The notes under the pieces were generated by a model that saw only the letters and a program-made list of their open reading frames with translations, was not told where the DNA came from and made no database searches. The position numbers and the translations under genes are program-made. Below are positions 8,078 through 24,950 of a DNA stretch of 64,000 nt, piece after piece. The stretch covers positions 1 to 64,000 of the forward strand of contig JAQVAV010000016.1 in NCBI GenBank assembly GCA_028690665.1. Direction: 5' to 3'. The first letter of the stretch is position 1, and each line of letters starts with the position of its first letter. The stretch is from Paludibacter sp. (GTDB taxonomy: Bacteria; Bacteroidota; Bacteroidia; Bacteroidales; Paludibacteraceae).

Positions 8078-9058
8078 TTAAATAATTTTCAATCTTTTTC
8101 GTAGTTTATATATAAACATCTCGGAAACATACTCCGAAGTATAACTCATTTTTTGCTTAATAACAACTGGATTAAGAATGTTATTATTTCCATTTTCAAG
8201 CGACAAAATAAATTCTGAAACAAAAGCGAATAGATTGTACTTGTTTAAAATTCTTTTTTTTGAATTTAAAATAGAATTTAATTTGTTATCGTAATAATGA
8301 GGATCATCAACCAGTTCTTCTATAACTAATTTACTTCTATTAAAGTCATTAATATCAATTCTTTTATATGATTCAGCATCAAAATAATTTTCAAGATTTG
8401 GACAGCCATAATAAATTGGTAGTGTGTGAGCTAAAAAACAATCATTAATTTTCTCAGTAAAGTAATTATTTGTAAAACTATTTTCAATCGCAATAGAGTA
8501 TTTATATGGCGACAAAACATCCCATTTGTCATCAAACGGCTGAATTCCTCTTCCATATAGATCAATCTTATCTTTAAACACTTCCTTTAACTTCAAAGCA
8601 AAATACAATCTTTTTTGTTGTCCGGGCAAATTTATTTTGTTAGATGAAATAATAGATATATTGCGACTTTTCGGGACAAAATCAATTTTCGCCAACTCAT
8701 CGTGTGATTTTCCTACAAACCATTCTGATAAAGGGGGTGATAACACAGCATTTGAAAAATGGTTCAATATATAGCCTTGAAATGAAATAATATGAGCAAA
8801 CTGTTTTAAAAAAGCTTTTGGGTAAATTTTAACACTAAGAGGTTCAATGGCAATAAATATTGTATTTTCTTTAGGACAGTTAGTTTGCTGATCAAAATAG
8901 CCTGGCAAAAAGTTAAATACCAGCCAATAGTCGTATTTTGTATTATCAGAAGGAGGATTTAAAATATATACTATATCATTGCTGTATCCTGATTTTGGTA
9001 ACATTTTCATTAAAAAATCACTATTATTTTCAGGATAACTAATCTTAACTGTAATCAT
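8078..9058 (-). CDS. GT10 alpha-1,3-fucosyltransferase-like glycosyltransferase
   Basis: C-terminal YKYSIAIENSFTNNYFTEKINDCFLAHTLPIYYGCPNLENYF, typical of the GT10 donor-site region. Confidence 0.82.
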   Translation of the reverse strand: MITVKISYPENNSDFLMKMLPKSGYSNDIVYILNPPSDNTKYDYWLVFNFLPGYFDQQTNCPKENTIFIAIEPLSVKIYPKAFLKQFAHIISFQGYILNHFSNAVLSPPLSEWFVGKSHDELAKIDFVPKSRNISIISSNKINLPGQQKRLYFALKLKEVFKDKIDLYGRGIQPFDDKWDVLSPYKYSIAIENSFTNNYFTEKINDCFLAHTLPIYYGCPNLENYFDAESYKRIDINDFNRSKLVIEELVDDPHYYDNKLNSILNSKKRILNKYNLFAFVSEFILSLENGNNNILNPVVIKQKMSYTSEYVSEMFIYKLRKRLKII

Positions 9059-9059
9059 T

Positions 9060-10445
9060 TTATTTAATTGAAAATTTTTTAATAATAGAGATAAAATCTT
9101 TTATTTTTATATTAGATTCTTTAATCGTTTCCAATGGCCATTTCCAGTTCTGATATGCTGTCATGGTTATCCCCGGAGCCAAAATCATAGCGAGTACACC
9201 CAGATGAAAATAACGGAGCATTATCATCAACACGACAAGAGAAACCAGCCCGGATATTAAAACAGACTTAAAAAACGGAACCTCATTTTTAGTCAACAGC
9301 GTTGATGTAGAAATAGACTGACATGAATCTAAAAATCCAAAAACAAGCATTAACATCAAATATCCGGTACCAAGCAGGAACGTTTTACTATGAATAAGGT
9401 GTAACAATGGATTGCCCAATAATAGCAAACCGACTCCCGTAACAATAAAAACAAACAAAACAACCAGTAGCCCCTTAATATATAACCGTTTTACACTTTC
9501 AATATCATTTCTTACTCGATATTGCGTCAATTGTGGATAGAATGTTCCAAACCAAGTTCCACCCAAACTCATAATCAGGCTAATCACTTGCTTTGAAATT
9601 CCGTATTCGGCAACTTCTGCCAAAGAAAGATAGAACGGAGATATCATTGTTATTGCCTGATTCAAAGCAAAATATCCCAATGTTGTAAGTCCAATTTTAA
9701 AAGCATTTGGGGTCATTATTTTCATAACATCCTTCACTGGCATAGCTATGGCCCCCTTTATTCCGTCACGAATTTCTTTATCAAAAAAAACTTTATATGA
9801 CAAAACTCTGTTCACAACATCACTAATAAGTATTCCCAGAACCAAAGAGATTATTCCAAATCCAGACAAGAGCAATACCAATGTAGCTATAATTCTTAAT
9901 GACTGAGAAAATACAATAATCTGCATATTTTTTTTAATCAGACCACGTCCTGTCATCAACGAATTATAATAGTAAGTATAAAACTCGTATGCAACCAACG
10001 TTCCATAAGTGAACCAGGCAATCCAAATTTCTGTTTTTTCGCCTGAATACTTTTCAAGAATCGTTCCCAGATAATATGGACTAACCAGATAAAAAAGAAT
10101 TAAAAAAAGCAACGACATTAACCCATAATAAGTTCTCATTGCTTTAATTACACTTTTCAACAAGCTAAAATTAATATGTTCGTTTTTACTTTCAACTATT
10201 TTATACCCATGCACCTTCAACTCATCAACACCACTAAAGACATAGGCCACATTTCTGGAAAAAGAGTTTGAAAATCCAAAATCCATCAATGCTGTCAATG
10301 AGCTGACAGTCAAAAAAATACTCCACAGGCCAACTTCCTGCGAAGGCAAAAGCCTTAATACCAATGGAAGAATAATTATTCCAGAGGCTATACGCATAAA
10401 AGTTGCCAGATAATTCCAGAAAATATCTTTACGACCTGTGTTCAT
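9060..10445 (-). CDS. polysaccharide flippase (Wzx/MATE-like oligosaccharide translocase)
   Basis: 461 aa polytopic protein starting RKDIFWNYLATFMRIASGIIILPLVLRLLPSQEVGLWSIFLTVSSL; located in a glycan cluster. Confidence 0.87.
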   Translation of the reverse strand: MNTGRKDIFWNYLATFMRIASGIIILPLVLRLLPSQEVGLWSIFLTVSSLTALMDFGFSNSFSRNVAYVFSGVDELKVHGYKIVESKNEHINFSLLKSVIKAMRTYYGLMSLLFLILFYLVSPYYLGTILEKYSGEKTEIWIAWFTYGTLVAYEFYTYYYNSLMTGRGLIKKNMQIIVFSQSLRIIATLVLLLSGFGIISLVLGILISDVVNRVLSYKVFFDKEIRDGIKGAIAMPVKDVMKIMTPNAFKIGLTTLGYFALNQAITMISPFYLSLAEVAEYGISKQVISLIMSLGGTWFGTFYPQLTQYRVRNDIESVKRLYIKGLLVVLFVFIVTGVGLLLLGNPLLHLIHSKTFLLGTGYLMLMLVFGFLDSCQSISTSTLLTKNEVPFFKSVLISGLVSLVVLMIMLRYFHLGVLAMILAPGITMTAYQNWKWPLETIKESNIKIKDFISIIKKFSIK

Positions 10446-10452
10446 ATTTTAA

Positions 10453-11523
10453 TTATATTTTCTGAATCTCTTTAGCTGCAATCTCTGCTGCATGTCCCCT
10501 CCCATAAAGATTTAAAGAAAAATCCGATTTTCTATCTTTAAGAATATCAAATGCCGATTGTAGTTTTTCGGAATTACTCCCCACAAGTATATTAAAACCA
10601 TTATCGACAAGTTCAGTCCATTCTGTTTGTTCCCTTAGTGTTATACAGTGTTTTCCAAAGAAAAAAGCCTCTTTCTGTACCCCTCCGCTATCAGTTATAA
10701 CCAATTCACAACTCTTTAATAACATTATCATATCAAAATAGCCAACCGGATCAATAATCGTAAATTCCGGCAACTGAAAATTATGAGCAAGTATGTTTCG
10801 TGTACGCGGATGCATTGGAACTACAACAGGAATTTGCTTATTTATCTGATCCAATCCATGAATGATATTCCTTAAATTTTCAGGAGAGTCGGTATTTTCC
10901 TGACGATGTATAGTAGCAAGGACAAATTTCTTGAATCCAATCTTTTTTATAATACTGGATTTCAACATGGCTGATTCTGCATAAAACATAGCGGCATCCT
11001 GCATAACATCTCCATTTTTAATTATTTGAACAGGCATTGCATCAAAACCTTCTCTCTTTAGATTTGCAACAGCTGTATCTGTAGGGCAAAACAGCACATT
11101 TGAAATTCTATCTGTTAAAATTCGGTTAATCTCTTCCGGCATTTGCATATTGAATGAACGCAAACCGGCCTCAACATGTATTAACGGAATCTGTAGCTTA
11201 GAGGCAGCCAAAGCTCCGGATAAAGTCGAATTCGTATCTCCGTAAACCAACACACCATCAGGCTTTTCATTTTGAAGAATTGATTCAATACCCTCCAGCA
11301 TTCGACCAGTCATTGCCCCATGACTAAGGCCATGTATATCAAGATTGTATGCAGGTTTAGGTATTTCCATTTCCTCAAAAAACACTTGAGACATATTTTC
11401 ATCAAAATGTTGTCCAGTATGTACAATTTTTTCGTCTATACCACGTATTAAAAACTGACGGCTCAATGTAGCAGCTTTGATAAACTGTGGACGTGCACCA
11501 ACAATTGTAATAATTTTATCCAT
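10453..11523 (-). CDS. wecB: UDP-N-acetylglucosamine 2-epimerase (non-hydrolysing)
   Basis: VGARPQFIKAA, VHTGQHFDENMS, VYGDTNSTLSGALAA, HVEAGLRSFNMQMPEEINR, TDSGGVQKEA motifs. Confidence 0.95.
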   Translation of the reverse strand: MDKIITIVGARPQFIKAATLSRQFLIRGIDEKIVHTGQHFDENMSQVFFEEMEIPKPAYNLDIHGLSHGAMTGRMLEGIESILQNEKPDGVLVYGDTNSTLSGALAASKLQIPLIHVEAGLRSFNMQMPEEINRILTDRISNVLFCPTDTAVANLKREGFDAMPVQIIKNGDVMQDAAMFYAESAMLKSSIIKKIGFKKFVLATIHRQENTDSPENLRNIIHGLDQINKQIPVVVPMHPRTRNILAHNFQLPEFTIIDPVGYFDMIMLLKSCELVITDSGGVQKEAFFFGKHCITLREQTEWTELVDNGFNILVGSNSEKLQSAFDILKDRKSDFSLNLYGRGHAAEIAAKEIQKI

Positions 11524-11546
11524 AAATATTTATTCTGATAATAACA

Positions 11547-12842
11547 TCAATCTTTGTCCATAATCTGATTGACCAATAGCTTTGTAAGGTTTTCTCTGGA
11601 ATATTTTTCAATATCCTTACTTTCAACAAACAACTCATTTTTCTTAAACAAATTATAGTATTGAAGCATTGCTTTTTTCGTTTTATCAAGCTCATCAAAT
11701 CCCACAACAACTCCAGCATTTGTTTCCCTAATAATTGTTGCTGCATCTCCATGTACATGTGCAACACAAAATATGGGTCTACTTGCATTCAGATATTCAA
11801 AAAGTTTTCCGGTTAAGATATTTTCAGTTCCAGGCGTATTTACAAGCAATAATAGAAGTACTTGCGAGGCTTGTTGTAATTTGAGTGCTTCAGTGTGTGG
11901 AACATAAGATAATTTTTCCAGATTGTCCAACAAACCAGCATTTTCAATACTTTCAATCACAGGATAATCAATTTTACCAACTAATCTGATTATCAATTTT
12001 TTTTTAAATTCGGGAAATTCATCGCAAAGCTCTTTTAAAACTTTCCAAAGTAGCAACGGATTTTGTTTTTGAGTTAACAAACCTATATGAGAAAGTGTAA
12101 ACTTTGTATCTAAAGCTCCCTTTTCTGTCGGTTCTTGTTCATTATCATATCCATTGCTAATTACTGTTATTGGCACCGATGTTTGTTGTTCAAAATCCTT
12201 TTTCATTCCATTAGAAACAACAATAAGCTTATCTGCTTTCTGAAGAATTTTATTTTCTAAAAAATGATGTATTTTGTCGGAAATATAGCTTAAGTTCAGA
12301 TCTTTATAAAAATAAATTTTAGTCCAAGGATCTCTGAAATCAGCTATCCAGTTTATAGATGCATTCTTTTTCTTAAGTCCATATCCAATAAAATGCATCG
12401 AATGTGGAGGGCCGGTTGTAATAACCGTGTCTATATCATTTTCAGTAATGTACTTTGACAAGAATTTCACCGAAGGTCGAATCCAGAATACCCTCGGGTC
12501 TGGAATTAGAAAATTCCCGCGTATCCATATTGACAATCTATCTTTCCAACTAGCTTGAGATTTTTCAGAAATGAATCCTGCATTTATCGCTTCACCTTTT
12601 TTCCCTATAAGCTTCCTATATATATTATAAGGTTCCCAAATAGGACGTTTAAGAATGGTAATATCTGATGGGATATCGCTATCCATTGAATGATCTATTG
12701 ATGGATATTCCGGATTTTCTGGAACGTAAATAACAGGTTCAACACCAAATTTACGCAAATACTTCGTAAACTTTACCCACCGTTGCACACCTGAACCTCC
12801 GCTTGGTAACCAGTAGTATGTAATAATCAATATTTTTTTCAT
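11547..12842 (-). CDS. glycosyltransferase family 4
   Basis: MKKILIITYYWLPSGGSGVQRWVKFTKYL start and GKLFEYLNASRPIFCV C-terminal donor-binding region. Confidence 0.88.
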   Translation of the reverse strand: MKKILIITYYWLPSGGSGVQRWVKFTKYLRKFGVEPVIYVPENPEYPSIDHSMDSDIPSDITILKRPIWEPYNIYRKLIGKKGEAINAGFISEKSQASWKDRLSIWIRGNFLIPDPRVFWIRPSVKFLSKYITENDIDTVITTGPPHSMHFIGYGLKKKNASINWIADFRDPWTKIYFYKDLNLSYISDKIHHFLENKILQKADKLIVVSNGMKKDFEQQTSVPITVISNGYDNEQEPTEKGALDTKFTLSHIGLLTQKQNPLLLWKVLKELCDEFPEFKKKLIIRLVGKIDYPVIESIENAGLLDNLEKLSYVPHTEALKLQQASQVLLLLLVNTPGTENILTGKLFEYLNASRPIFCVAHVHGDAATIIRETNAGVVVGFDELDKTKKAMLQYYNLFKKNELFVESKDIEKYSRENLTKLLVNQIMDKD

Positions 12843-12849
12843 TCAAAAA

Positions 12850-13632
12850 TTAAATTTTTACAATGTAATATCCAGCCGTGGAGACAAAGTCTCTAAAATA
12901 AGGTATTGCAGATAGTACCTTCCATAACTTTCGGGGTTTTAAACCAAATTTTATCTGATAATTCGGGTTAATAAAATACAAGGTTTTCCGGACTATTTTG
13001 TAATCATTTTTAGCTACAATACGTTCAAAGCGATCCAAACTTATCCCTGTATCTTTAATTTCGGCCAATCCTTTGATTTTAGATTCACTTTCGCCAAAAA
13101 TTTTTAAAATAAATTTATACAACTGCATTGGCAATAAATGAAAATAAGGCACTAATGACAGAAATTTATTTTCACAAACCTGTTGATGCCCGCCAAATGG
13201 ATTCTGCCAGGGAGGAAATGCAAAAAAAGCAATTCCATCAGGTGTCATAAGCTTTTTCATCAATCCAAGGAATTTATCCTGATCGTGGATATGTTCAATA
13301 ACATCTCTTAAAATAATCAAATCAAATTTTGCTTCGAATTCCTTCACATTATAAATATCTTCGCTGATAAGCGTAATATTTTCTACATTGGGATCGGTAG
13401 CATAAAAAGCCTTTCCTTTTTCGATTTTCGGAGTGCTAAAATCGACTCCGGTACAAATACATCCGGCATCGAGGAAGGGCTTCAGATTACCGGCCTCTCC
13501 ACAACCGATTTCGAGTACCTGCATACCCCGTACAACAGGTTTTACCTGAGCAATATACGGAAGAACATATTTCTGGGTACTCTGTATTTGTTCGTTAAGA
13601 TAGCGTAAAGGATCGGAATGGCGTTTTTGCAT
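12850..13632 (-). CDS. class I SAM-dependent methyltransferase
   Basis: VLEIGCGEAGNLKPFLDAGCICTGVDFS, FDLIILRDVIEHIHD motifs. Confidence 0.9.
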   Translation of the reverse strand: MQKRHSDPLRYLNEQIQSTQKYVLPYIAQVKPVVRGMQVLEIGCGEAGNLKPFLDAGCICTGVDFSTPKIEKGKAFYATDPNVENITLISEDIYNVKEFEAKFDLIILRDVIEHIHDQDKFLGLMKKLMTPDGIAFFAFPPWQNPFGGHQQVCENKFLSLVPYFHLLPMQLYKFILKIFGESESKIKGLAEIKDTGISLDRFERIVAKNDYKIVRKTLYFINPNYQIKFGLKPRKLWKVLSAIPYFRDFVSTAGYYIVKI

Positions 13633-15302: not shown

Positions 15303-17528
15303 TCATTCCGACAACAATACTGATGAATTATAAAGACGCCTGTATCCTCCATCAAAAGACATTAACTCATCATGAGTTCCATGTTCGGTTATTGTTCCAT
15401 TTTCAAAAAAGAAAATTTTATCGACCCAACGGACTGTACTCAGGCGATGGCTGACAATAACTGCTGTTTTATCCCGACTTAAATTCTTCAGTCCATCTAT
15501 TACCTGCCGTTCCGAAGCTGCATCAAGTGCACTCGAAGGTTCATCCAATAAAATCAACGGAGCATCCCGGTAAAATGCACGGGCAATAGCCATTTTCTGC
15601 CATTGTCCTATACTTAGTTCTTCGCCCCCGCTAAATTGATTTCCCAACAAAGTTTCATACCCTTTCGGGAGTTGCTCAATAACATCTGCAATACCGGCAG
15701 CTTCTGCAGCAGTCATAATTAATTTCTTATCCGGTTCCTCTTTATAATTTCCCAAGGCTATATTTTGAAAGACCGGCAAATAGTAAAGTGCAAAATCCTG
15801 AAATACCGCAGCAATATTTTTGCGTAAAGTATCCCCGCCTATTTGTTTTAAATCGGTATCATCCAATAATATCTTCCCTGAATCGGGCTGATAAAATCCA
15901 CATAATAATTTTATTAAAGTAGTTTTTCCAGAACCGTTTTCTCCAACAAAAGCAACCGTTTGTCCTGCAAAAATCTCAATATTAATATCAGAAAGGGCAT
16001 TTCGCAGACTGGTTTCATAACGAAAACTCAGATTCTCAATTACAATTCTTTGCTTAAGTTCAAAATTTCCATGTGCATTAAAACTCTTATCTTCCAACAC
16101 AACAGAATTCAGAAAATCAACAAAATCATTCAAAAATACATTGTCCTCCACTATCCGTGTTGCGGAACGGAACAAATCGTTCATTACAGAATATCCTCGC
16201 TGAAAGGCAAAAAAGAAAAGCACAACCGTACCAATTGTAATAGCTCCGTTTATTTTAAGAAAAGAGACGTAACCCAATGAGCAAAAAATAAGCAAAACGG
16301 CAAACACCTGAGCATATATTTGGAGTTGAAGATCAGATTTTCTTATAATTATCTTTTCTTGGAAAAGCTGGTTTTGTAACTTTTGAAACTTTGTCCTGAA
16401 AAACCCCGGGAACTGAAAAAGTTTCATCTCTTTTGCGAAAGGGAAGCCAGTCAATACCCGGTTATAGTAATACATTTCGCGCTCACTTGCAGCCTGAGCT
16501 GTTTTCTGTTTATATAACCGGGAGGCAAAACGCAGCTGAACAAAAACTTCAGGCAAAACAGCCAGCATTATAATAAGTGCCAAATACCATTTAATAAAAA
16601 TAAAGATTCCCAGAAAAAACAGAGATGAAGTTATTGCCCTAACAACATTCAAAATTTCATTCAGAATTTTTTGAGGGCGATATGATGCTTCCTGGACTGC
16701 ACGATGAATTCTATTTTGCTTTTCGGGATGTTCATAAGCAGACAAATCAAGTCTGGCATGTTTATCATGGAGCCTCTGATAGACCTGTTTCGAAACAGAC
16801 TGCGAAAGTTTTTCGCCCCAATAAGCTCTAAATTCATTCAATAAGCCGTTTAATAAAAAAGCCAATGAGGTAAGTATCAACAAAACATAAAATCCGCAAT
16901 TTGATGCGTGTGCAAAATCTCCGTTGGTCAGATGATCTATTAATAATTTTATCAACACAATCACTAAAAAAGGCAGAACTCCTTGAAAAACGGAGATTAT
17001 TCCATTCAGAATAAAAATTCCGGTCGAGCCTTTCTGAATTATCCTGAGATTAGATTTAAGCGTACCGATTTTTAAGATTTTATTCTCAACATTCAGACGG
17101 AAACGATTAACACGAGAGCAAAGCATTGGTACAAGCAAAGCCATAAATCTATACAAATTCCAACGACTATTTCTGAGTTTGCACTTTTTACCAGCACGTT
17201 CAAAGCCAATAACCTTTCCAACAATGGACGATTCAGGGAAAGGTTTATCATAATACAGATTGTTGTCCCCTTTGGTTATGAATAAGTTTCCTTTTTTTCG
17301 AATAAGCCGGTGAGCTATATATTTTCCGGAATCATTCTTCATAACAACAATATCACCGTTTCTTATTTCGTTGAAACTGCATCTGATAATCAGCCCCCAA
17401 TCTCCATTCCTCAGCACAGGAAACATACTTTGACCGCTTAATTTAATTTTTAAACCAAAATCATTAGATAAAAGCTCCTCGGCCCAATCAAGTATCTGTT
17501 TTTCTGTATGATTTTTATCCATTGTCAA
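15303..17528 (-). CDS. fusion: N-terminal S24/S26 (SipW-like signal peptidase) domain plus ABC exporter (TMD-NBD)
   Basis: N-term KLSGQSMFPVLRNGDWGLI (Ser) and SGKYIAHRLIRKKGNLFITKGDNN (His); then TMDs; Walker A GENGSGKTTL, signature LSIGQWQKMAIARA, Walker B LILLDEPSSALD. Confidence 0.9.
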   Translation of the reverse strand: MTMDKNHTEKQILDWAEELLSNDFGLKIKLSGQSMFPVLRNGDWGLIIRCSFNEIRNGDIVVMKNDSGKYIAHRLIRKKGNLFITKGDNNLYYDKPFPESSIVGKVIGFERAGKKCKLRNSRWNLYRFMALLVPMLCSRVNRFRLNVENKILKIGTLKSNLRIIQKGSTGIFILNGIISVFQGVLPFLVIVLIKLLIDHLTNGDFAHASNCGFYVLLILTSLAFLLNGLLNEFRAYWGEKLSQSVSKQVYQRLHDKHARLDLSAYEHPEKQNRIHRAVQEASYRPQKILNEILNVVRAITSSLFFLGIFIFIKWYLALIIMLAVLPEVFVQLRFASRLYKQKTAQAASEREMYYYNRVLTGFPFAKEMKLFQFPGFFRTKFQKLQNQLFQEKIIIRKSDLQLQIYAQVFAVLLIFCSLGYVSFLKINGAITIGTVVLFFFAFQRGYSVMNDLFRSATRIVEDNVFLNDFVDFLNSVVLEDKSFNAHGNFELKQRIVIENLSFRYETSLRNALSDINIEIFAGQTVAFVGENGSGKTTLIKLLCGFYQPDSGKILLDDTDLKQIGGDTLRKNIAAVFQDFALYYLPVFQNIALGNYKEEPDKKLIMTAAEAAGIADVIEQLPKGYETLLGNQFSGGEELSIGQWQKMAIARAFYRDAPLILLDEPSSALDAASERQVIDGLKNLSRDKTAVIVSHRLSTVRWVDKIFFFENGTITEHGTHDELMSFDGGYRRLYNSSVLLSE

Positions 17529-18372
17529 TCACAAAATCAATGATATGGTTATCAGGTACAAAACCCAGCTCATAAACATTAACCGTCTGAATCATTTTGC
17601 TTAAAAAAGCCAGGTTACCAACAATAAAACTTTGAGAGAAATTATTTTGAATGCAAAAAGCTAATACTTTTGACACAGCAATTGCGCCTTCTATTTTGCG
17701 AATTTTATTTTCCGGGAAGTGCCTAATTAAAAATATGGACCTCAAGACAGTAGATTTCGGTACATCGGCATAATACATAGGTGTATTATACGCTACAAAC
17801 TCTTCTCCCTGACGACGGATAATTATCCTGTCATCGTTTATAACCTGATAGCCGACATCCTTCCATATTTTAGCCATTGTGCTTTTCCCTCTACCGGAAA
17901 ATCCGGCAAAAAGCTGTCCTGTCTTTCCATCGGTTACGCAGGCTGCATGAATCATCACTGCCTCTGAATTCACAGTCAGATATTGCATAATCAATGGGCC
18001 CATTGGGTAACGCAATGGATTTATTTTCCCGTTCGATAATAAGTCGGTATAAATTGTCCAATGCTTTAAATCAGAGCTTAACACGGCTAACTGCTGAATT
18101 TTTCCTTTTTCCTGCTGGTTATATATCAAAAAGGTCAACTCTTTTCCCGTTTGATAAATAGCATAAAAACGTTGCGATTCATTTTCTGCAACAAAAACAG
18201 CTTCACCCAATTCCAATGCCTCAGAAATACCGGCATAGCATGCAATTTCAACATCCGGAGTTTTATTCGACTGAGATTTAAAGGGGTAATACCCTTCTTC
18301 TAAAGAAATCTCGACCTCTGAATTCAAAGATAATTCAAAACCGGCAATTGCTATCTTAGAACTATATCTCAC
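17515..18372 (-). CDS. HPr-kinase-like P-loop protein (PqqD-associated HprK-related)
   Basis: LFAGFSGRGKSTMAKIWKDVGYQVINDDRIII P-loop and DD motif; between pqqD-like and ABC exporter genes. Confidence 0.8.
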   Translation of the reverse strand: MRYSSKIAIAGFELSLNSEVEISLEEGYYPFKSQSNKTPDVEIACYAGISEALELGEAVFVAENESQRFYAIYQTGKELTFLIYNQQEKGKIQQLAVLSSDLKHWTIYTDLLSNGKINPLRYPMGPLIMQYLTVNSEAVMIHAACVTDGKTGQLFAGFSGRGKSTMAKIWKDVGYQVINDDRIIIRRQGEEFVAYNTPMYYADVPKSTVLRSIFLIRHFPENKIRKIEGAIAVSKVLAFCIQNNFSQSFIVGNLAFLSKMIQTVNVYELGFVPDNHIIDFVIDNG

Positions 18373-18378
18373 CTAACG

Positions 18379-18654
18379 TTATTTTAGAGTTGCAGCTATT
18401 TTATTGAGAAATGTTTCAACATCTATTTTGGCAGTTTCTGCCTCAACATCAAACTCCTGAACCAATAAAGCAATAATATCCTCCTTAGTATTCTTCCCAT
18501 CAACTTGTTCCCAAATAAATTTTCCAGTCTCATTTAACGTAAATAAGACATTCATTTGTGCTACATTTCCACTCAACGGGACTAATACCAATTCATCACC
18601 AATTTCACGGGTGATATATTTCGATTTTAACTCAAACAAGAAATGAATATTCAT
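18379..18654 (-). CDS. PqqD-family protein (RiPP recognition element-like)
   Basis: 91 aa; YITREIGDELVLVPLSGNVAQMNVLFTLNETGKFIWEQVDGKNTKEDIIALLVQEFDV matches the PqqD fold pattern. Confidence 0.88.
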   Translation of the reverse strand: MNIHFLFELKSKYITREIGDELVLVPLSGNVAQMNVLFTLNETGKFIWEQVDGKNTKEDIIALLVQEFDVEAETAKIDVETFLNKIAATLK

Positions 18655-18743: not shown

Positions 18744-18923
18744 TTACGCTAAATTTGTTTTATATGGATCATTCAATGAATTCTCCTGAAAATTTTTTGT
18801 TTCTCCAGGACCAGCTGGAGGAGTTGATTCAAGCTGTAATGAAATCTCATTATCAAGCTTAATCTCTCTAATTTCCGGTTGATGATAATTTCTTTTTTTT
18901 GTTATATTCATTTGAAGTTTCAT
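18744..18923 (-). CDS. 59-aa candidate precursor peptide (not in supplied ORF track)
   Basis: translated by hand: MKLQMNITKKRNYHQPEIREIKLDNEISLQLESTPPAGPGETKNFQENSLNDPYKTNLA*; starts 11 nt after the stop of the T9SS gene and is followed by a strong hairpin; next to PqqD/HprK/S26-ABC genes. Confidence 0.7.
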   Translation of the reverse strand: MKLQMNITKKRNYHQPEIREIKLDNEISLQLESTPPAGPGETKNFQENSLNDPYKTNLA

Positions 18924-18934
18924 ATTTTTAATAT

Positions 18935-21337
18935 TTATTTTATTACTATTTTTTGGAGTTTCGTATTCCCAGAATTTAGAGATCCCACAAAATAAACACC
19001 GGTATTTAATTTATCGGATATAACAGTTTTACCAACAACATCCCGTTCCATTATTTTCTGACCGACAGCATTATAAATCACAATTCTATTTTCGGTTTTT
19101 ACATTTACTACAATATTGTTTTGTTTATCTACATAAGTATAAAACGAATTATTTACTTTTTCATTCTCTGTTGTCGTCCCTGTCATTCTAAAAATAAGAC
19201 CAAAACGGTCTGTATTATCAACAATATCAGATATAAAAGTATAAAAATAGCCTGAAGAAATTTCCATTTCATCATTTATTAACTTATCATGCAGGTAAAG
19301 TTTTAATCCGGTTGCAAAGTTAGAAAATTCGGTTGACTTTATAGTAAAATCACCTTGTTCTCCTGTTCTGAAACCAAGGGGAATTTCCACATCAACCGGA
19401 ATCTGGTTCATTCCATTTATAACTAACTCGGAATTGTCTGCTTTTGTATAGATTTCAGGAATTACATCGTTTTCATTCGATATTTTTTGAGAATCATAAC
19501 TATCAAGATCATTATCCGCATTATCATTAAAATATAAAACGGTTTCATCTGTATTCTCCTGGTTTTCGACCTGAATTCTAACAACTTTGTTTAATGAAAC
19601 CTGAGGTGCTTTTAAAATATTGGCTGCAATATCCCGGTCTGCCCGGTCTGTCAATTTAAAGCCCAGACTTCCGGTTGTCGCATTTTCTACCCTAACCCAA
19701 AATGCTTGCATAGAAGGTACGAAATTAGTAACCCCGGCAGGAGAACCTATTTCCCCTCCTCCATAGCCTGCTTCTGAACCATTATAGGTATAAAACTTAT
19801 AGGAACTGCCCTCTTTGGTTCTATACCACATGGTATTATTTAAATAACTTTTTGTTAATGTATTCCAATTCAAATAGGCAGGATATGGATTTCCAACCAA
19901 ATTAAATCCTTCTTTTACCTGACCAGTTGTTCTGGTTAAATTAACGGTAGTATCCTTATTAAATATAGTTCCGGTAAATGTATAAACCTGCCCATTTGAG
20001 CTTCCTATTGAAGCAACATAGCCGATTCCATTTATAAATTCAGATGCAGTAGACCAGCTTGCACCGGCTTCATCTCTAGAATATAAGGCATTTCCAACAA
20101 CATCTGTTACTACCGCTGCACTCGCTGAACTAACAGGACTGGCAATATAATAATTTCGATCTTTTTTCAAAAATTGCTCTACATTATACGAACCGGATCC
20201 GGATATTGCAGAAGGTGTAATTAACGTTGCGGTTCCATTAATTGTATCTGATTGCAATGTAACTGTTCCATTATTGGTCAATACCCCGGCAACAGTAAGT
20301 TGTTTTCCAGCAGCTAAACTAATAATTCCATCAACAATCAAACTTCCAGAGGCCGCTCTATTGGTATTTAAATTTACTGTGCCTGAACTCACCGTTATAT
20401 TTTGTGGTACTTCCGTTGCTGACCAGGAATAATCATTGGCATTTACATCATAAGTAACTTCGGTACCCTGATTAAACTTCAAAATTGCTGTTGAATTATA
20501 AAAATTAGTTGGTGGCGCCGTCGAGACAAATCCTCCATTTCCAATTTCAAGAGTACCAGTAACACTAACGCCTTCACCAAATGAAACTCCTACATTCGAA
20601 CTGCCTGCCGTTTTATTTACCGTAATATTCTCAAAAGCAATAGTTCCAGAAACAACATGTATTGCATCTCCTGAACTTGGTTCTCCTGAAAAAACTACAG
20701 TATTTCCACCCAAGCCATTATCCCATGTTCCACTGTTTGACAGAGTTGAATTTGAACCAGAGATTGAATTATTAAGAGTCAAAATACGTGGAGAAGCATC
20801 ACTCGCGGTGAAAGTAGCACCAGAATTTATGGTGAGACTATAGATAGTAACATTTGCATCCAATGTTATATTATTAGCAATTATGTAACTTGCAGTAGCA
20901 GATGTTGGAACAAATCCATCGCACCAGGTTGACGCAGAATTCCAATAGCCATCTGACACCGTTGTCGGATTTATTGAGATTGCATAATTATTACTACTAT
21001 TACTATCCCAAACATCTGCGCCCCAATCATCCCAACCATGAAAATAATATTCTGTGGCAGTAGACTTAACGGTAATATTCGCAGACCATGTTGAATTATT
21101 TCCGTTATTATCTCCTTGCGTTAAAGAGTAAGCAACCCACGTTCCACCCTCATTTATTTGAACTTCTGCATGACAGCCCGAATAGCTATCATACATTTCT
21201 ACATAAAAGTATATTGTTTGAGAACCTTCTGGCTGTGAACCCGTAAAATGATTTCCCATCCATGATATTGTAGAAAAGACAGGTATCCTTATAAAAAGCA
21301 ACATAAAAAACAAATAAATGCACTTTTTAGTATTCAT
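18935..21337 (-). CDS. T9SS type A sorting domain-containing surface protein
   Basis: signal peptide; C-term NRIVIYNAVGQKIMERDVVGKTVISDKLNTGVYFVGSLNSGNTKLQKIVIK; shares C-terminal modules with the adjacent 1158-aa protein. Confidence 0.9.
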   Translation of the reverse strand: MNTKKCIYLFFMLLFIRIPVFSTISWMGNHFTGSQPEGSQTIYFYVEMYDSYSGCHAEVQINEGGTWVAYSLTQGDNNGNNSTWSANITVKSTATEYYFHGWDDWGADVWDSNSSNNYAISINPTTVSDGYWNSASTWCDGFVPTSATASYIIANNITLDANVTIYSLTINSGATFTASDASPRILTLNNSISGSNSTLSNSGTWDNGLGGNTVVFSGEPSSGDAIHVVSGTIAFENITVNKTAGSSNVGVSFGEGVSVTGTLEIGNGGFVSTAPPTNFYNSTAILKFNQGTEVTYDVNANDYSWSATEVPQNITVSSGTVNLNTNRAASGSLIVDGIISLAAGKQLTVAGVLTNNGTVTLQSDTINGTATLITPSAISGSGSYNVEQFLKKDRNYYIASPVSSASAAVVTDVVGNALYSRDEAGASWSTASEFINGIGYVASIGSSNGQVYTFTGTIFNKDTTVNLTRTTGQVKEGFNLVGNPYPAYLNWNTLTKSYLNNTMWYRTKEGSSYKFYTYNGSEAGYGGGEIGSPAGVTNFVPSMQAFWVRVENATTGSLGFKLTDRADRDIAANILKAPQVSLNKVVRIQVENQENTDETVLYFNDNADNDLDSYDSQKISNENDVIPEIYTKADNSELVINGMNQIPVDVEIPLGFRTGEQGDFTIKSTEFSNFATGLKLYLHDKLINDEMEISSGYFYTFISDIVDNTDRFGLIFRMTGTTTENEKVNNSFYTYVDKQNNIVVNVKTENRIVIYNAVGQKIMERDVVGKTVISDKLNTGVYFVGSLNSGNTKLQKIVIK

Positions 21338-21473: not shown

Positions 21474-24400
21474 TTACGGCACTACAATTTTAACAGTTGA
21501 ATTAATTTTTCCGGATATAGCCTTTATAAAATAAATACCGGAAGACAAACTTTGATCTAAAACAGTAATATCGCCAACAGACAATTCAGTAGCTACCTGT
21601 TTACCGGTAACATCAAATACCCGTATGTCAACAGGGTCAGCAATAGATGACATTACACAAATTTTTCCGGACTGGTTCAGATAAGCTTTTATAGTTCTGA
21701 CATTCTCTTTCTCCAAAGCAGTAGTCAAATCTTTAGTTTTCAATAACAATGCAAAACGATCAGTAATATTCTCTACCGCATCCGAACTGAAACTATATGA
21801 TTTTTTTTTGGTAACATCTTCAATTTCATTATTATATTTATCTAAAATAAATATCTGAAATGACTGTTTTAAGGCCTCACTCGATTCCATCTCTATACAG
21901 AAAGTGCCTTGTTTCCCAGTTGTAAAACCAAGTGGAATTTCATTTTGCATATCACTAATTCTAACATTCCGGATCACCATATTTTCATTATTCTTCACGG
22001 TATAAATCTCTGGAATTTCGGCATTTTGATTACTCATTTTCAGCGCATCAAAATCACTGTCATATTCAGAATCGGGCCTTATCACCAAAATTGTTTCATC
22101 TGAATTTAAGCCATTCGAAATGCTGATTCTTAAAATTTTATCCAGTGATACGGATTTCATTTTTAATCTATTGGTTTCTACTTCATGTGTACGTAACGCA
22201 TTTGTAAAATTTACCACGCCAGTTTTACTTCCATCCGTCACTTTTACCCATACGCTTTGCATAGGAGGAATCATTCCGGTAACTGCACCTAACTTATTAT
22301 TATTAGTTCCTATTCCATTAAAAGTATCAAAAACATAATTTCCTGCAAGATTTTTTGTTCTGTACCAAATGGTATGGTCTACATCAATTTTTTCAGCTTC
22401 AGACCAATCTAAGTATGATGGATAAGGATTTCCCAATAAATTATAACCTTCTTTTTGCTTTCCGGCTGTTCGTGTCAAAGTAACAGACAAATCTCCATTG
22501 TTTAACTTTGTTCCGGTAAATTCAATATAATTTGAACTCGCTGTTTGTTTTGTTATAAATCCCATTGCAGGGGAAAGATCAGACCCGATTGAAATTAATT
22601 CCCAGTATTCTGTTTCAGGAGAAACGTAGTCTATATTATTGCCAGGTTCATCATATTTATAAATTGTAAAACCAGCTGGAGCCGGAGCATTATATACAGG
22701 GGACGACATATACCAGTTACGAACTGAATTAAGGAATTGACTCACAATATAATTTCCTGTTCCTCGCATCTCCTCGGGCGTTAAAATAGTAGCTAATTCA
22801 ATTGAATTTGAAAATAATTTTATAGTACCATTATTCGTAAAATTAGAAGTACATGTCAGATTTTTTCCGGCGTTGATTGTAAGCATTCCGTTAACGATCA
22901 AGTTCTCTATTGTTACATCTCCATTCAATGCAATAGAATGACCACTCTGAATTTCCACTAAGCCATCTGTATCAGGTTCAGAACCCGCATCAATCCAAGA
23001 GTTTCCTCCATCAACAGATTTAGTCCAACAGCTTGAACTTTCCCAAATTCCACTTGCTTTTGTTTTATAATACTTTGTAGGTTTGTGAATTGTATTGCCG
23101 GGAATTGAGATTGTCACACCCGAAGGGACTGAAGGGCCATAATTTTGATCAAAAATATTGGATATCGTTATAATGCCGGGACCACCTTTTGTAAAAGATG
23201 AATTTGGCTGCTTAAAATATGGTACCGATATATTGGAATCAGCAGTAAATATTTTTCCAGATCCGGTAAAAATTAACCATCCGGAACCAGAACAATAAAA
23301 TGGTTCATACCCTCCTTTAGACACAGTTATGTTTCCTCCTATAAAAATGCTTCCATCACTATATTCAATACGGGAATTCCATTCATTTGGAGTATTTGTA
23401 AAATCTCCGATAATAGTCAAATTATTCGATCCAACGCTTACTGAACTTTGATTTGTGAGAGACAAACTACCATTAACCATAAAATCATGATTAAGAATCA
23501 AATGACTATTATAAACCGTCATATCTAATCCGGCACAGGAAAGGTCTAGTACATCGACCGTAACGGTATGTCCCTGACAAAATATAACAGTATCAACAGA
23601 AGTAGGATATGAACCGGAATTTGTACTTCCACCACATCCTTCCGTTGTCCATGTCGATGGAGTTGTCCAATTGCCTGATTGCCTGGAATAATACTTTTTA
23701 GGTTTATTACTAAACGTCGCTTGCTCAGAATACGTGACTCCGGAACTGTTTTTTGCATACGCTTTAAAATAATACGTAGTGTTTGGCGATAAATCTGTTA
23801 CCGGTAAAAGATATTGGCCAAGTCCGAAATTTCCTGCTTCTGCAATCCGGATTCCAGCTCCGTCTGCAAAACCATCGATCGTACTTACATAAAAACCTCT
23901 TTCTGATATTACATCCGAACTACAACCGGTTAATGTCACAGTAGCTCCCAAAGTAGCGGTTGTACCCGTTATGGCAGAACTAATCAATGAGTCAACTTTG
24001 GGTACCACATTATAAGATCCGGCACCTGTTACCTGTATATTTACACTCTCGGCTCCTCCTCCGGTGACAACGATATTACCATTATACAACCCATTAGCAT
24101 CCGGAGAAAATTTTACAAAAATAGTTTGAGAAAAATTTCCTCCATTTTGATCAAAAGTCAATGTTGTTGTATATAAGCCATCATTCGATGTTGATAGTGT
24201 ATATCCATCTGGAACTGTAACATAAATATCCTGATCATACAACCCCAATCCGGAAAGTTCAAAAAATTGAACATCTGAAGTTAAACCGGGACAAACAACT
24301 CCGAAATCCATCGAATCGACAGCTGACAATGTCGAAGCACATGGTGTCGCATGAATTTTAGTTGCTGCTGTAGTATTGATCCCCGAAGGTATTGATGACT

Positions 24401-24950
24401 GAAAACAATTATAATCATATACTCCGGAAACCGTCAACTCTGTTGTATTATTGAGGACGAAAGCAAATGACGAAGAACCAACCCGAAAGTTAGCAATTTC
24501 TTTTTCTACATAAAACATCGGTATCGTTCCGTTTATTTGCAAATATCCGGTAGTCTGAGAAATAGTTGATTTATTCCCCCAGTCAACAGACCAACTATTT
24601 TCCACCACTAAATCAAAATCACCTAAGTTAATTACACTCGCAGAACCAGTGTTATCAAAATACAAATTTGCACAAGTTGCATCTTCTGTAAGTGTTATAG
24701 TAACAACATTTCCATTATTAGCAATATGCGCATTATCTCCACTCTGGGGATAAGTACCTGCATTTCCCACTCCATTCCAACCACCATCCGTTGTCCATGT
24801 TTCTGGACTATTCCACAGACCGGATTGACGCTGATAGTAATCAGTAGCAAAAAGAAATCCGGCATAAAAAACAAAAAATACGACAGTAAAAAGAAATTTG
24901 CATCCCGGCAGTTTAGTTTCAACGCAGGACGGACGACAAATTACACCCAT
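21474..24950 (-). CDS. large T9SS type A sorting domain-containing surface protein with internal repeats
   Basis: C-term VDIRVFDVTGKQVATELSVGDITVLDQSLSSGIYFIKAISGKINSTVKIVVP; three repeats of the type YYxRQSGxWxxPxTWTTxG...P.S.D; the true start may be downstream of the annotated M. Confidence 0.88.
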   Translation of the reverse strand: MGVICRPSCVETKLPGCKFLFTVVFFVFYAGFLFATDYYQRQSGLWNSPETWTTDGGWNGVGNAGTYPQSGDNAHIANNGNVVTITLTEDATCANLYFDNTGSASVINLGDFDLVVENSWSVDWGNKSTISQTTGYLQINGTIPMFYVEKEIANFRVGSSSFAFVLNNTTELTVSGVYDYNCFQSSIPSGINTTAATKIHATPCASTLSAVDSMDFGVVCPGLTSDVQFFELSGLGLYDQDIYVTVPDGYTLSTSNDGLYTTTLTFDQNGGNFSQTIFVKFSPDANGLYNGNIVVTGGGAESVNIQVTGAGSYNVVPKVDSLISSAITGTTATLGATVTLTGCSSDVISERGFYVSTIDGFADGAGIRIAEAGNFGLGQYLLPVTDLSPNTTYYFKAYAKNSSGVTYSEQATFSNKPKKYYSRQSGNWTTPSTWTTEGCGGSTNSGSYPTSVDTVIFCQGHTVTVDVLDLSCAGLDMTVYNSHLILNHDFMVNGSLSLTNQSSVSVGSNNLTIIGDFTNTPNEWNSRIEYSDGSIFIGGNITVSKGGYEPFYCSGSGWLIFTGSGKIFTADSNISVPYFKQPNSSFTKGGPGIITISNIFDQNYGPSVPSGVTISIPGNTIHKPTKYYKTKASGIWESSSCWTKSVDGGNSWIDAGSEPDTDGLVEIQSGHSIALNGDVTIENLIVNGMLTINAGKNLTCTSNFTNNGTIKLFSNSIELATILTPEEMRGTGNYIVSQFLNSVRNWYMSSPVYNAPAPAGFTIYKYDEPGNNIDYVSPETEYWELISIGSDLSPAMGFITKQTASSNYIEFTGTKLNNGDLSVTLTRTAGKQKEGYNLLGNPYPSYLDWSEAEKIDVDHTIWYRTKNLAGNYVFDTFNGIGTNNNKLGAVTGMIPPMQSVWVKVTDGSKTGVVNFTNALRTHEVETNRLKMKSVSLDKILRISISNGLNSDETILVIRPDSEYDSDFDALKMSNQNAEIPEIYTVKNNENMVIRNVRISDMQNEIPLGFTTGKQGTFCIEMESSEALKQSFQIFILDKYNNEIEDVTKKKSYSFSSDAVENITDRFALLLKTKDLTTALEKENVRTIKAYLNQSGKICVMSSIADPVDIRVFDVTGKQVATELSVGDITVLDQSLSSGIYFIKAISGKINSTVKIVVP

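Follow-up and report, generated by a model that had tools for sequence, protein, structure and literature searches.

A predicted serine-type leader peptidase joined to a peptide ABC exporter in Bacteroidales, and a RiPP-like cassette whose putative precursor genes are paired with type IX secretion cargo

The stretch of Paludibacter sp. DNA analyzed here (the window; 64,000 nucleotides, positions 1 to 64,000 of contig JAQVAV010000016.1, assembly GCA_028690665.1) encodes a protein in which an S26 peptidase domain and an ABC exporter are joined in one chain. Our current hypothesis, which we consider likely, is that this protein unites a serine-type leader peptidase with a peptide exporter and completes a RiPP-like pathway working like the linear polyphosphorylated peptide (LPP) pathway of Bacillota. 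Sequence evidence shows which parts make up the system, that they are conserved, that the fusion exists, and that the precursor peptide is paired with type IX secretion cargo, while peptide cleavage and its site, modification, and the direction of transport are inferred. All of the evidence consists of sequence and prediction.

The fusion gene lies on the minus strand at 15303-17528 as one uninterrupted frame with no stop codon or frameshift. The TTG at 17528, up to which the frame stays open, is a mechanical start; since homologues begin at the codon matching the ATG at 17522, the protein is most likely 739 aa long (15303-17522). It consists of an N-terminal S26 domain of the Sec11/SipW type (residues 1-117, 17172-17522), an exporter transmembrane domain (residues 171-438, 16209-17012, Pfam ABC_membrane), and a nucleotide-binding domain (about residues 490-735, 15318-16055) with a Walker A motif GENGSGKTT, the signature LSIGQ, a Walker B motif LDEP, and an H-loop. 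Pfam analysis placed Peptidase_S24 at residues 8-105 (36.4 bits, cut-off 23.3), ABC_membrane at residues 171-438, and ABC_tran at residues 510-663. A fold search with the full-length model (pLDDT 76, pTM 0.58) revealed resemblance to MsbA and, across the full length, to PCAT1.

The joining of the two domains is genuine. A single open frame of 741-809 aa runs across the match in 23 of the 60 related genomes searched, the window's own included, which carries one fusion gene. In a tree of exporters (n = 42), the 27 fused proteins form one clade with a support of 100/100, and the fusion arose once in this sample. A gene-call error or frameshift was ruled out by the intact frame, the homologue alignment, and the clade.

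The S26 domain contains the motifs SGQSMFPVLRNGD, with Ser32 (codon 17427-17429), and YIAHRLI, with His71 (17310-17312), followed by Asp86 (17265-17267) and Asp92 (17247-17249), all on the minus strand. Ser32, His71, Lys84-Gly85-Asp86, and Asp92 are invariant in 21/21 aligned fused homologues, which share about 28-38% identity with the window protein across the S26 region, and the Ser, the His, and the first Asp are retained in all 57 S26 relatives, fused and separate. The invariant catalytic residues rule out a degenerate domain. The N-terminal 157 aa match NCBIfam TIGR02228 (archaeal-type signal peptidase I) with 59.8 bits, above the cut-off of 51.85. Assignment to the Ser/Lys LepB type or to the Ni-SOD protease type was rejected, as TIGR02227 and TIGR02754 stayed under their cut-offs. 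When aligned with the family profile, human SEC11A/C has its Ser, His, and Asp at the positions of Ser32, His71, Asp86, and Asp92, and the predicted S26 domain (pLDDT 89.5) returned SEC11C as its first fold match and LexA next. No membrane span was found before TM1 of the window protein (best 19-residue mean of 0.67 in residues 1-160), and the S26 domain is therefore predicted to face the cytosol, unlike SipW/Sec11 and as C39 does in PCATs.

The earlier note, made from the sequence alone, had claimed a SipW-like S26 domain fused to an ABC exporter, with a Ser motif and the YIAHRLI His motif arranged as in SipW/ER-type signal peptidases rather than as the Ser/Lys of LepB. These claims held, and the dyad is extended by Asp. 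The note would have been refuted by homologues lacking the catalytic residues or by two separate ORFs; the residues are conserved and the frame is single. Two of the checks that it proposed, an N-terminal structure prediction and a survey of domain architectures, were run and gave the SEC11C match and a fused clade set against separate neighbors in other families.

The fusion gene is the last member of a cassette in which all genes are on the minus strand, in the order cargo, peptide, RRE, kinase, and fusion, with gaps of 11, 89, and 6 bp followed by an overlap. The RiPP recognition element (RRE) is a 91-aa PqqD-type protein (18379-18654; Pfam PqqD, 66.7 bits), whose best NCBIfam match is a lasso PqqD model, under its cut-off. 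The HprK-like kinase (285 aa, 17515-18372) contains a P-loop, GFSGRGKST, and an NDDR motif, and its gene overlaps the start of the fusion gene. Across the HprK-like proteins, the P-loop and DD motif are intact in 42/42 and the Arg of DDR in 41/42. In other Bacteroidales families, the S26 protein (about 150-175 aa) and the exporter (about 600 aa) are encoded by separate neighboring genes. At the 15 loci with both separate genes, the S26 gene is upstream of the exporter gene on the same strand, and the two overlap at three (L107, L114, and L124). The order RRE, kinase, S26/exporter is kept in both the fused and the separate-gene clades. More distant RRE, HprK-like, and S26 neighbors occur in gut Bacteroidales (L062, L064, L065, and L132-L134), where the Ser and His are kept and the second Asp is changed; these could be an additional branch of this type of system.

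An NTP_transf_5 gene is present in 15 of 16 genomes and adjoins the exporter gene in six (G015, G369, G118, G430, G143, and G312); in the window's genome, it is located on another contig (C24). NTP_transf_5-like genes of about 390-405 aa were seen near the exporter gene at L117, L118, L120, L107, and L128, and this gene is likely the counterpart of LppN. Elsewhere in the window, positions 8078-13632 carry apparent surface-polysaccharide genes (flippase-like, UDP-GlcNAc 2-epimerase-like, and glycosyltransferases, named by sequence reading only), and a glutamyl-tRNA synthetase gene lies between these and the cassette. The LPP clusters of Bacillota are likewise found near capsule loci.

The putative precursor is a 59-aa peptide (18744-18923, minus strand) with the leader YxxPxIxxIxLDxxISLxLxS at residues 13-33. 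Cleavage is inferred to occur after Ser33, leaving a core of about 26 residues. The peptide family has three copies in the window's genome, and its genes are dispersed, with 1-29 copies per genome in 31 of 48 same-genus genomes. Third codon positions are the most variable among the peptide genes, which shows that they are coding sequences; a spurious ORF was ruled out by the dispersed conserved copies and the synonymous variation. An alignment of 57 distinct precursors revealed that Y-21, P-18, D-10, I-7, L-5, and S-1 are invariant and that position -3 is Leu (Met in one). Numbered from the inferred cut, core position +3 is Pro in 51/57 and Ser in 1/57. No conserved Ser or Thr was found in the core among the 57 precursors, two of which have neither residue in the core, and the cores are nearly alike within one genome. 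As a minor option, cleavage could instead follow the small residue (Ser/Ala) at -6; this is disfavored because a mostly acidic residue would then sit at -3, and the L-E-S preceding the preferred site fits the F-E-T of LPP.

The precursor and the fusion tend to occur together. Among 36 same-genus genomes, 21 contain both, one the fusion only, three the peptide only, and 11 neither (Fisher p 6.5e-6). It should be noted that this value is optimistic, since genomes of one genus are not independent. The single fusion-only genome (G034, locus L027) has the cassette and cargo domains, and no peptide was found in it by profile; its peptide may have diverged or be absent from the assembly. In the three peptide-only genomes (G012, G017, and G023), all draft assemblies, no fusion was found. 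We consider it likely that the 59-aa peptide is the substrate of the fusion protein. The earlier note had proposed this peptide for a processing assay, and its role as substrate is supported by the expected leader; processing by the fusion protein has not been shown.

A link to type IX secretion, which was absent from the earlier note, emerged from the genes upstream of the peptides. The gene 11 bp upstream of the window's peptide gene encodes an 800-aa type IX cargo (18935-21337, minus strand), assigned by a weak TIGR04183 match and a comparison of C-terminal domains (CTDs). All three peptide copies in the window's genome sit behind a type IX cargo gene. When 42 of the dispersed peptide genes were sampled, 40 were found to start 6-134 bp behind a gene ending in a type IX CTD on the same strand. 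The paired cargos have in common a domain of 350 aa before the CTD (19148-20197, minus strand, in the window), which profile comparison shows to be a distant relative of RemA and RemZ and for which no credible Pfam name was found. In G022, comparison of the copy lists placed a peptide gene behind 17/17 strong copies of this domain, and the copy numbers of domain and peptide across 20 genomes are correlated (Spearman 0.91, with the domain counts made by hand). Weak relatives of the domain occur in genomes without the system, and thus the pairing is with one subfamily. The subfamily was seen at 18935-21337 of the window and at L181-L220 and L225-L244, with a peptide gene behind it in almost all cases. 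Another member of this subfamily (1158 aa, 21474-24950, Por_Secre_tail just under cut-off) lies in tandem upstream in the window but is not itself immediately followed by a peptide gene. The pairing is also present in the separate-gene clade, where the cargo gene can adjoin the cassette (L109, L112, L113, L115, L237, and L244) and where the peptide gene at some loci lacks a cargo neighbor. Because the pairing is found in this clade as well, it likely predates the fusion.

The closest described system is the LPP RiPP pathway of Bacillota, which consists of LppA/B/K/S/D/N (Popov et al. 2026, PMC13381572). In that work, the SipW-like LppS removed the leader in vitro only with the RRE LppB, its S29A, H68A, and D93A variants were inactive, LppK phosphorylated Ser+3 of LppA, and the F-E-T leader end was cut after T-1; in lasso and LPP leaders, the RRE binds the YxxP motif. 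Both systems combine a discrete RRE, an HprK-like kinase, a SipW-like Ser/His/Asp peptidase, and an MsbA-like exporter in one cluster, and in both the YxxP leader ends in hydrophobic-x-Ser/Thr (in Bacteroidales, YxxP with Leu/Met at -3 and Ser at -1 in 57/57). The fifth LPP part, the NTP_transf_5 gene, is beside the cassette in several Bacteroidales. The Bacteroidales system differs in its host phylum, Bacteroidota, in having the peptidase fused to the exporter, in a spacing from the Tyr that is 5 residues longer, in the absence of the phospho-acceptor Ser+3 from the cores, and in precursors that are dispersed and paired with type IX cargo; in the window's genome, the NTP-transferase gene also lies on a contig other than that of the cassette. 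We do not class the Bacteroidales system as LPP, since Ser+3 is absent, LPP was described as restricted to Bacillota, and phosphorylation, which is only inferred here, is without a test; strict membership thus fails. The earlier note had regarded a serine-type equivalent of the leader-cleaving exporters (PCAT) as mechanistically distinct. This needs correction in so far as LppS (PMC13381572) is a precedent for serine-type leader removal in RiPP maturation; the joining of such a peptidase to the exporter is the part that appears unreported.

Other known systems share single features. PCAT/AMS transporters have an N-terminal leader peptidase followed by an ABC exporter half in the same order, and the full model aligns with PCAT1; however, their peptidase is a C39 cysteine enzyme rather than an S26 serine enzyme, and the Bacteroidales leader ends in LxS with no double-Gly site and has a separate RRE encoded alongside. 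SipW and the archaeal and ER signal peptidases (Sec11) share the fold, the Ser/His/Asp/Asp residues, and the TIGR02228 match, whereas the window domain lacks the N-terminal membrane anchor and its substrate lacks a Sec signal peptide. Paeninodin-like lasso clusters also encode a PqqD-type RRE, an HprK-like kinase, and a [Y/W]xxP leader, but the window cassette has no B2 transglutaminase-like peptidase or macrolactam cyclase. A lasso peptide cluster was rejected on this absence among the cassette genes and the next genes on both sides, the only genes checked.

In the proposed mechanism, the PqqD-type RRE would bind the YxxP part of the precursor and present the extended ISLxLxS stretch to the cytosolic S26 domain. 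Modification of the peptide, probably phosphorylation, would be the task of the HprK-like enzyme. The S26 domain, with Ser32 as the nucleophile, His71 as the base, and Asp86/Asp92, would cut after the invariant Ser33, and the attached exporter would move the core into the periplasm; the fusion would couple cutting with transport, as in PCATs. Each peptide copy is apparently co-transcribed with one type IX cargo, and because the copies form a genome-wide family arranged in this way, the peptide most likely would act on or with its cargo in the periplasm or at the surface, which is the least certain part of the proposal. For Bacteroidales members, no data on processing, modification, or transport came to light, and nothing that would carry the core through the outer membrane was identified. 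A bolder reading, against which we lean slightly, is that a type IX cargo family has the peptide as its dedicated partner, with one serine PCAT maturing and exporting all copies and the peptide then joining or escorting the cargo, for example by serving as a surface tag that is covalently attached or bound. A core specific to each cargo, which would be expected if each peptide fits one cargo, was rejected on the likeness of the cores within a genome. That the cores are nearly alike while the cargos differ argues for a common tag or a dose-matched factor and against a cargo-specific chaperone.

The rival explanation that survives best concerns the kinase, which might not phosphorylate the peptide: cutting and export would be the whole maturation, or the kinase would act on another residue or group. 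The lack of a conserved Ser/Thr in the core, including two cores with neither, speaks for this possibility, while the intact P-loop and DD motif of all 42 HprK-like proteins and the activity of LppK on LppA (PMC13381572) speak against it, and we rate it less likely than the proposed phosphorylation. It is also possible that the product is an ordinary secreted RiPP, a bacteriocin or a signal, and that cargo adjacency reflects shared promoters or co-multiplied units without a physical partnership. RiPP pathways typically have an RRE, a kinase, and an exporter of their own, near-alike cores per genome are as would be found for one product from several genes, and some separate-gene loci lack cargo beside the peptide. 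Against this stand the near one-to-one pairing with one cargo subfamily, complete in G022, its recurrence in both clades, and the tracking of peptide number by cargo-domain number. Much less probable is that the S26 domain is a peptide-binding or self-cleaving (LexA/UmuD-like) regulator of the exporter; LexA is among the fold matches and the Pfam name is S24, but the invariant residues are Sec11-type Ser/His/Asp/Asp and not Ser/Lys, and LppS provides a precedent for leader removal (PMC13381572). An assembly or gene-call artefact, suggested by the separate genes of other families, is all but excluded by the fused frames in 23 of 60 genomes, the fully supported clade, and the absence of a stop between the domains across many independent assemblies.

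Both the fusion to the exporter, a "serine PCAT," and the presence in Bacteroidota appear to be new. Searches of the open-access literature, which mostly leaves out subscription papers, returned no account of either an S26-ABC fusion or the pairing of peptide and cargo. As proposed, the protein is a serine-peptidase counterpart of PCAT transporters, and its relatives provide a natural before-and-after series in which peptidase and exporter are separate neighbors in one group of families and a single protein in another group. The system would extend LPP-type peptide maturation from Bacillota to Bacteroidota. If the bolder reading were true, two secretion routes would meet in the periplasm, with each cargo gene bringing its own copy of the peptide. 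The function of LPP peptides was stated to be unknown by the authors who described them (PMC13381572), and the finding that peptide genes and type IX cargo genes are paired almost one to one provides a concrete, testable lead on the function of such peptides.
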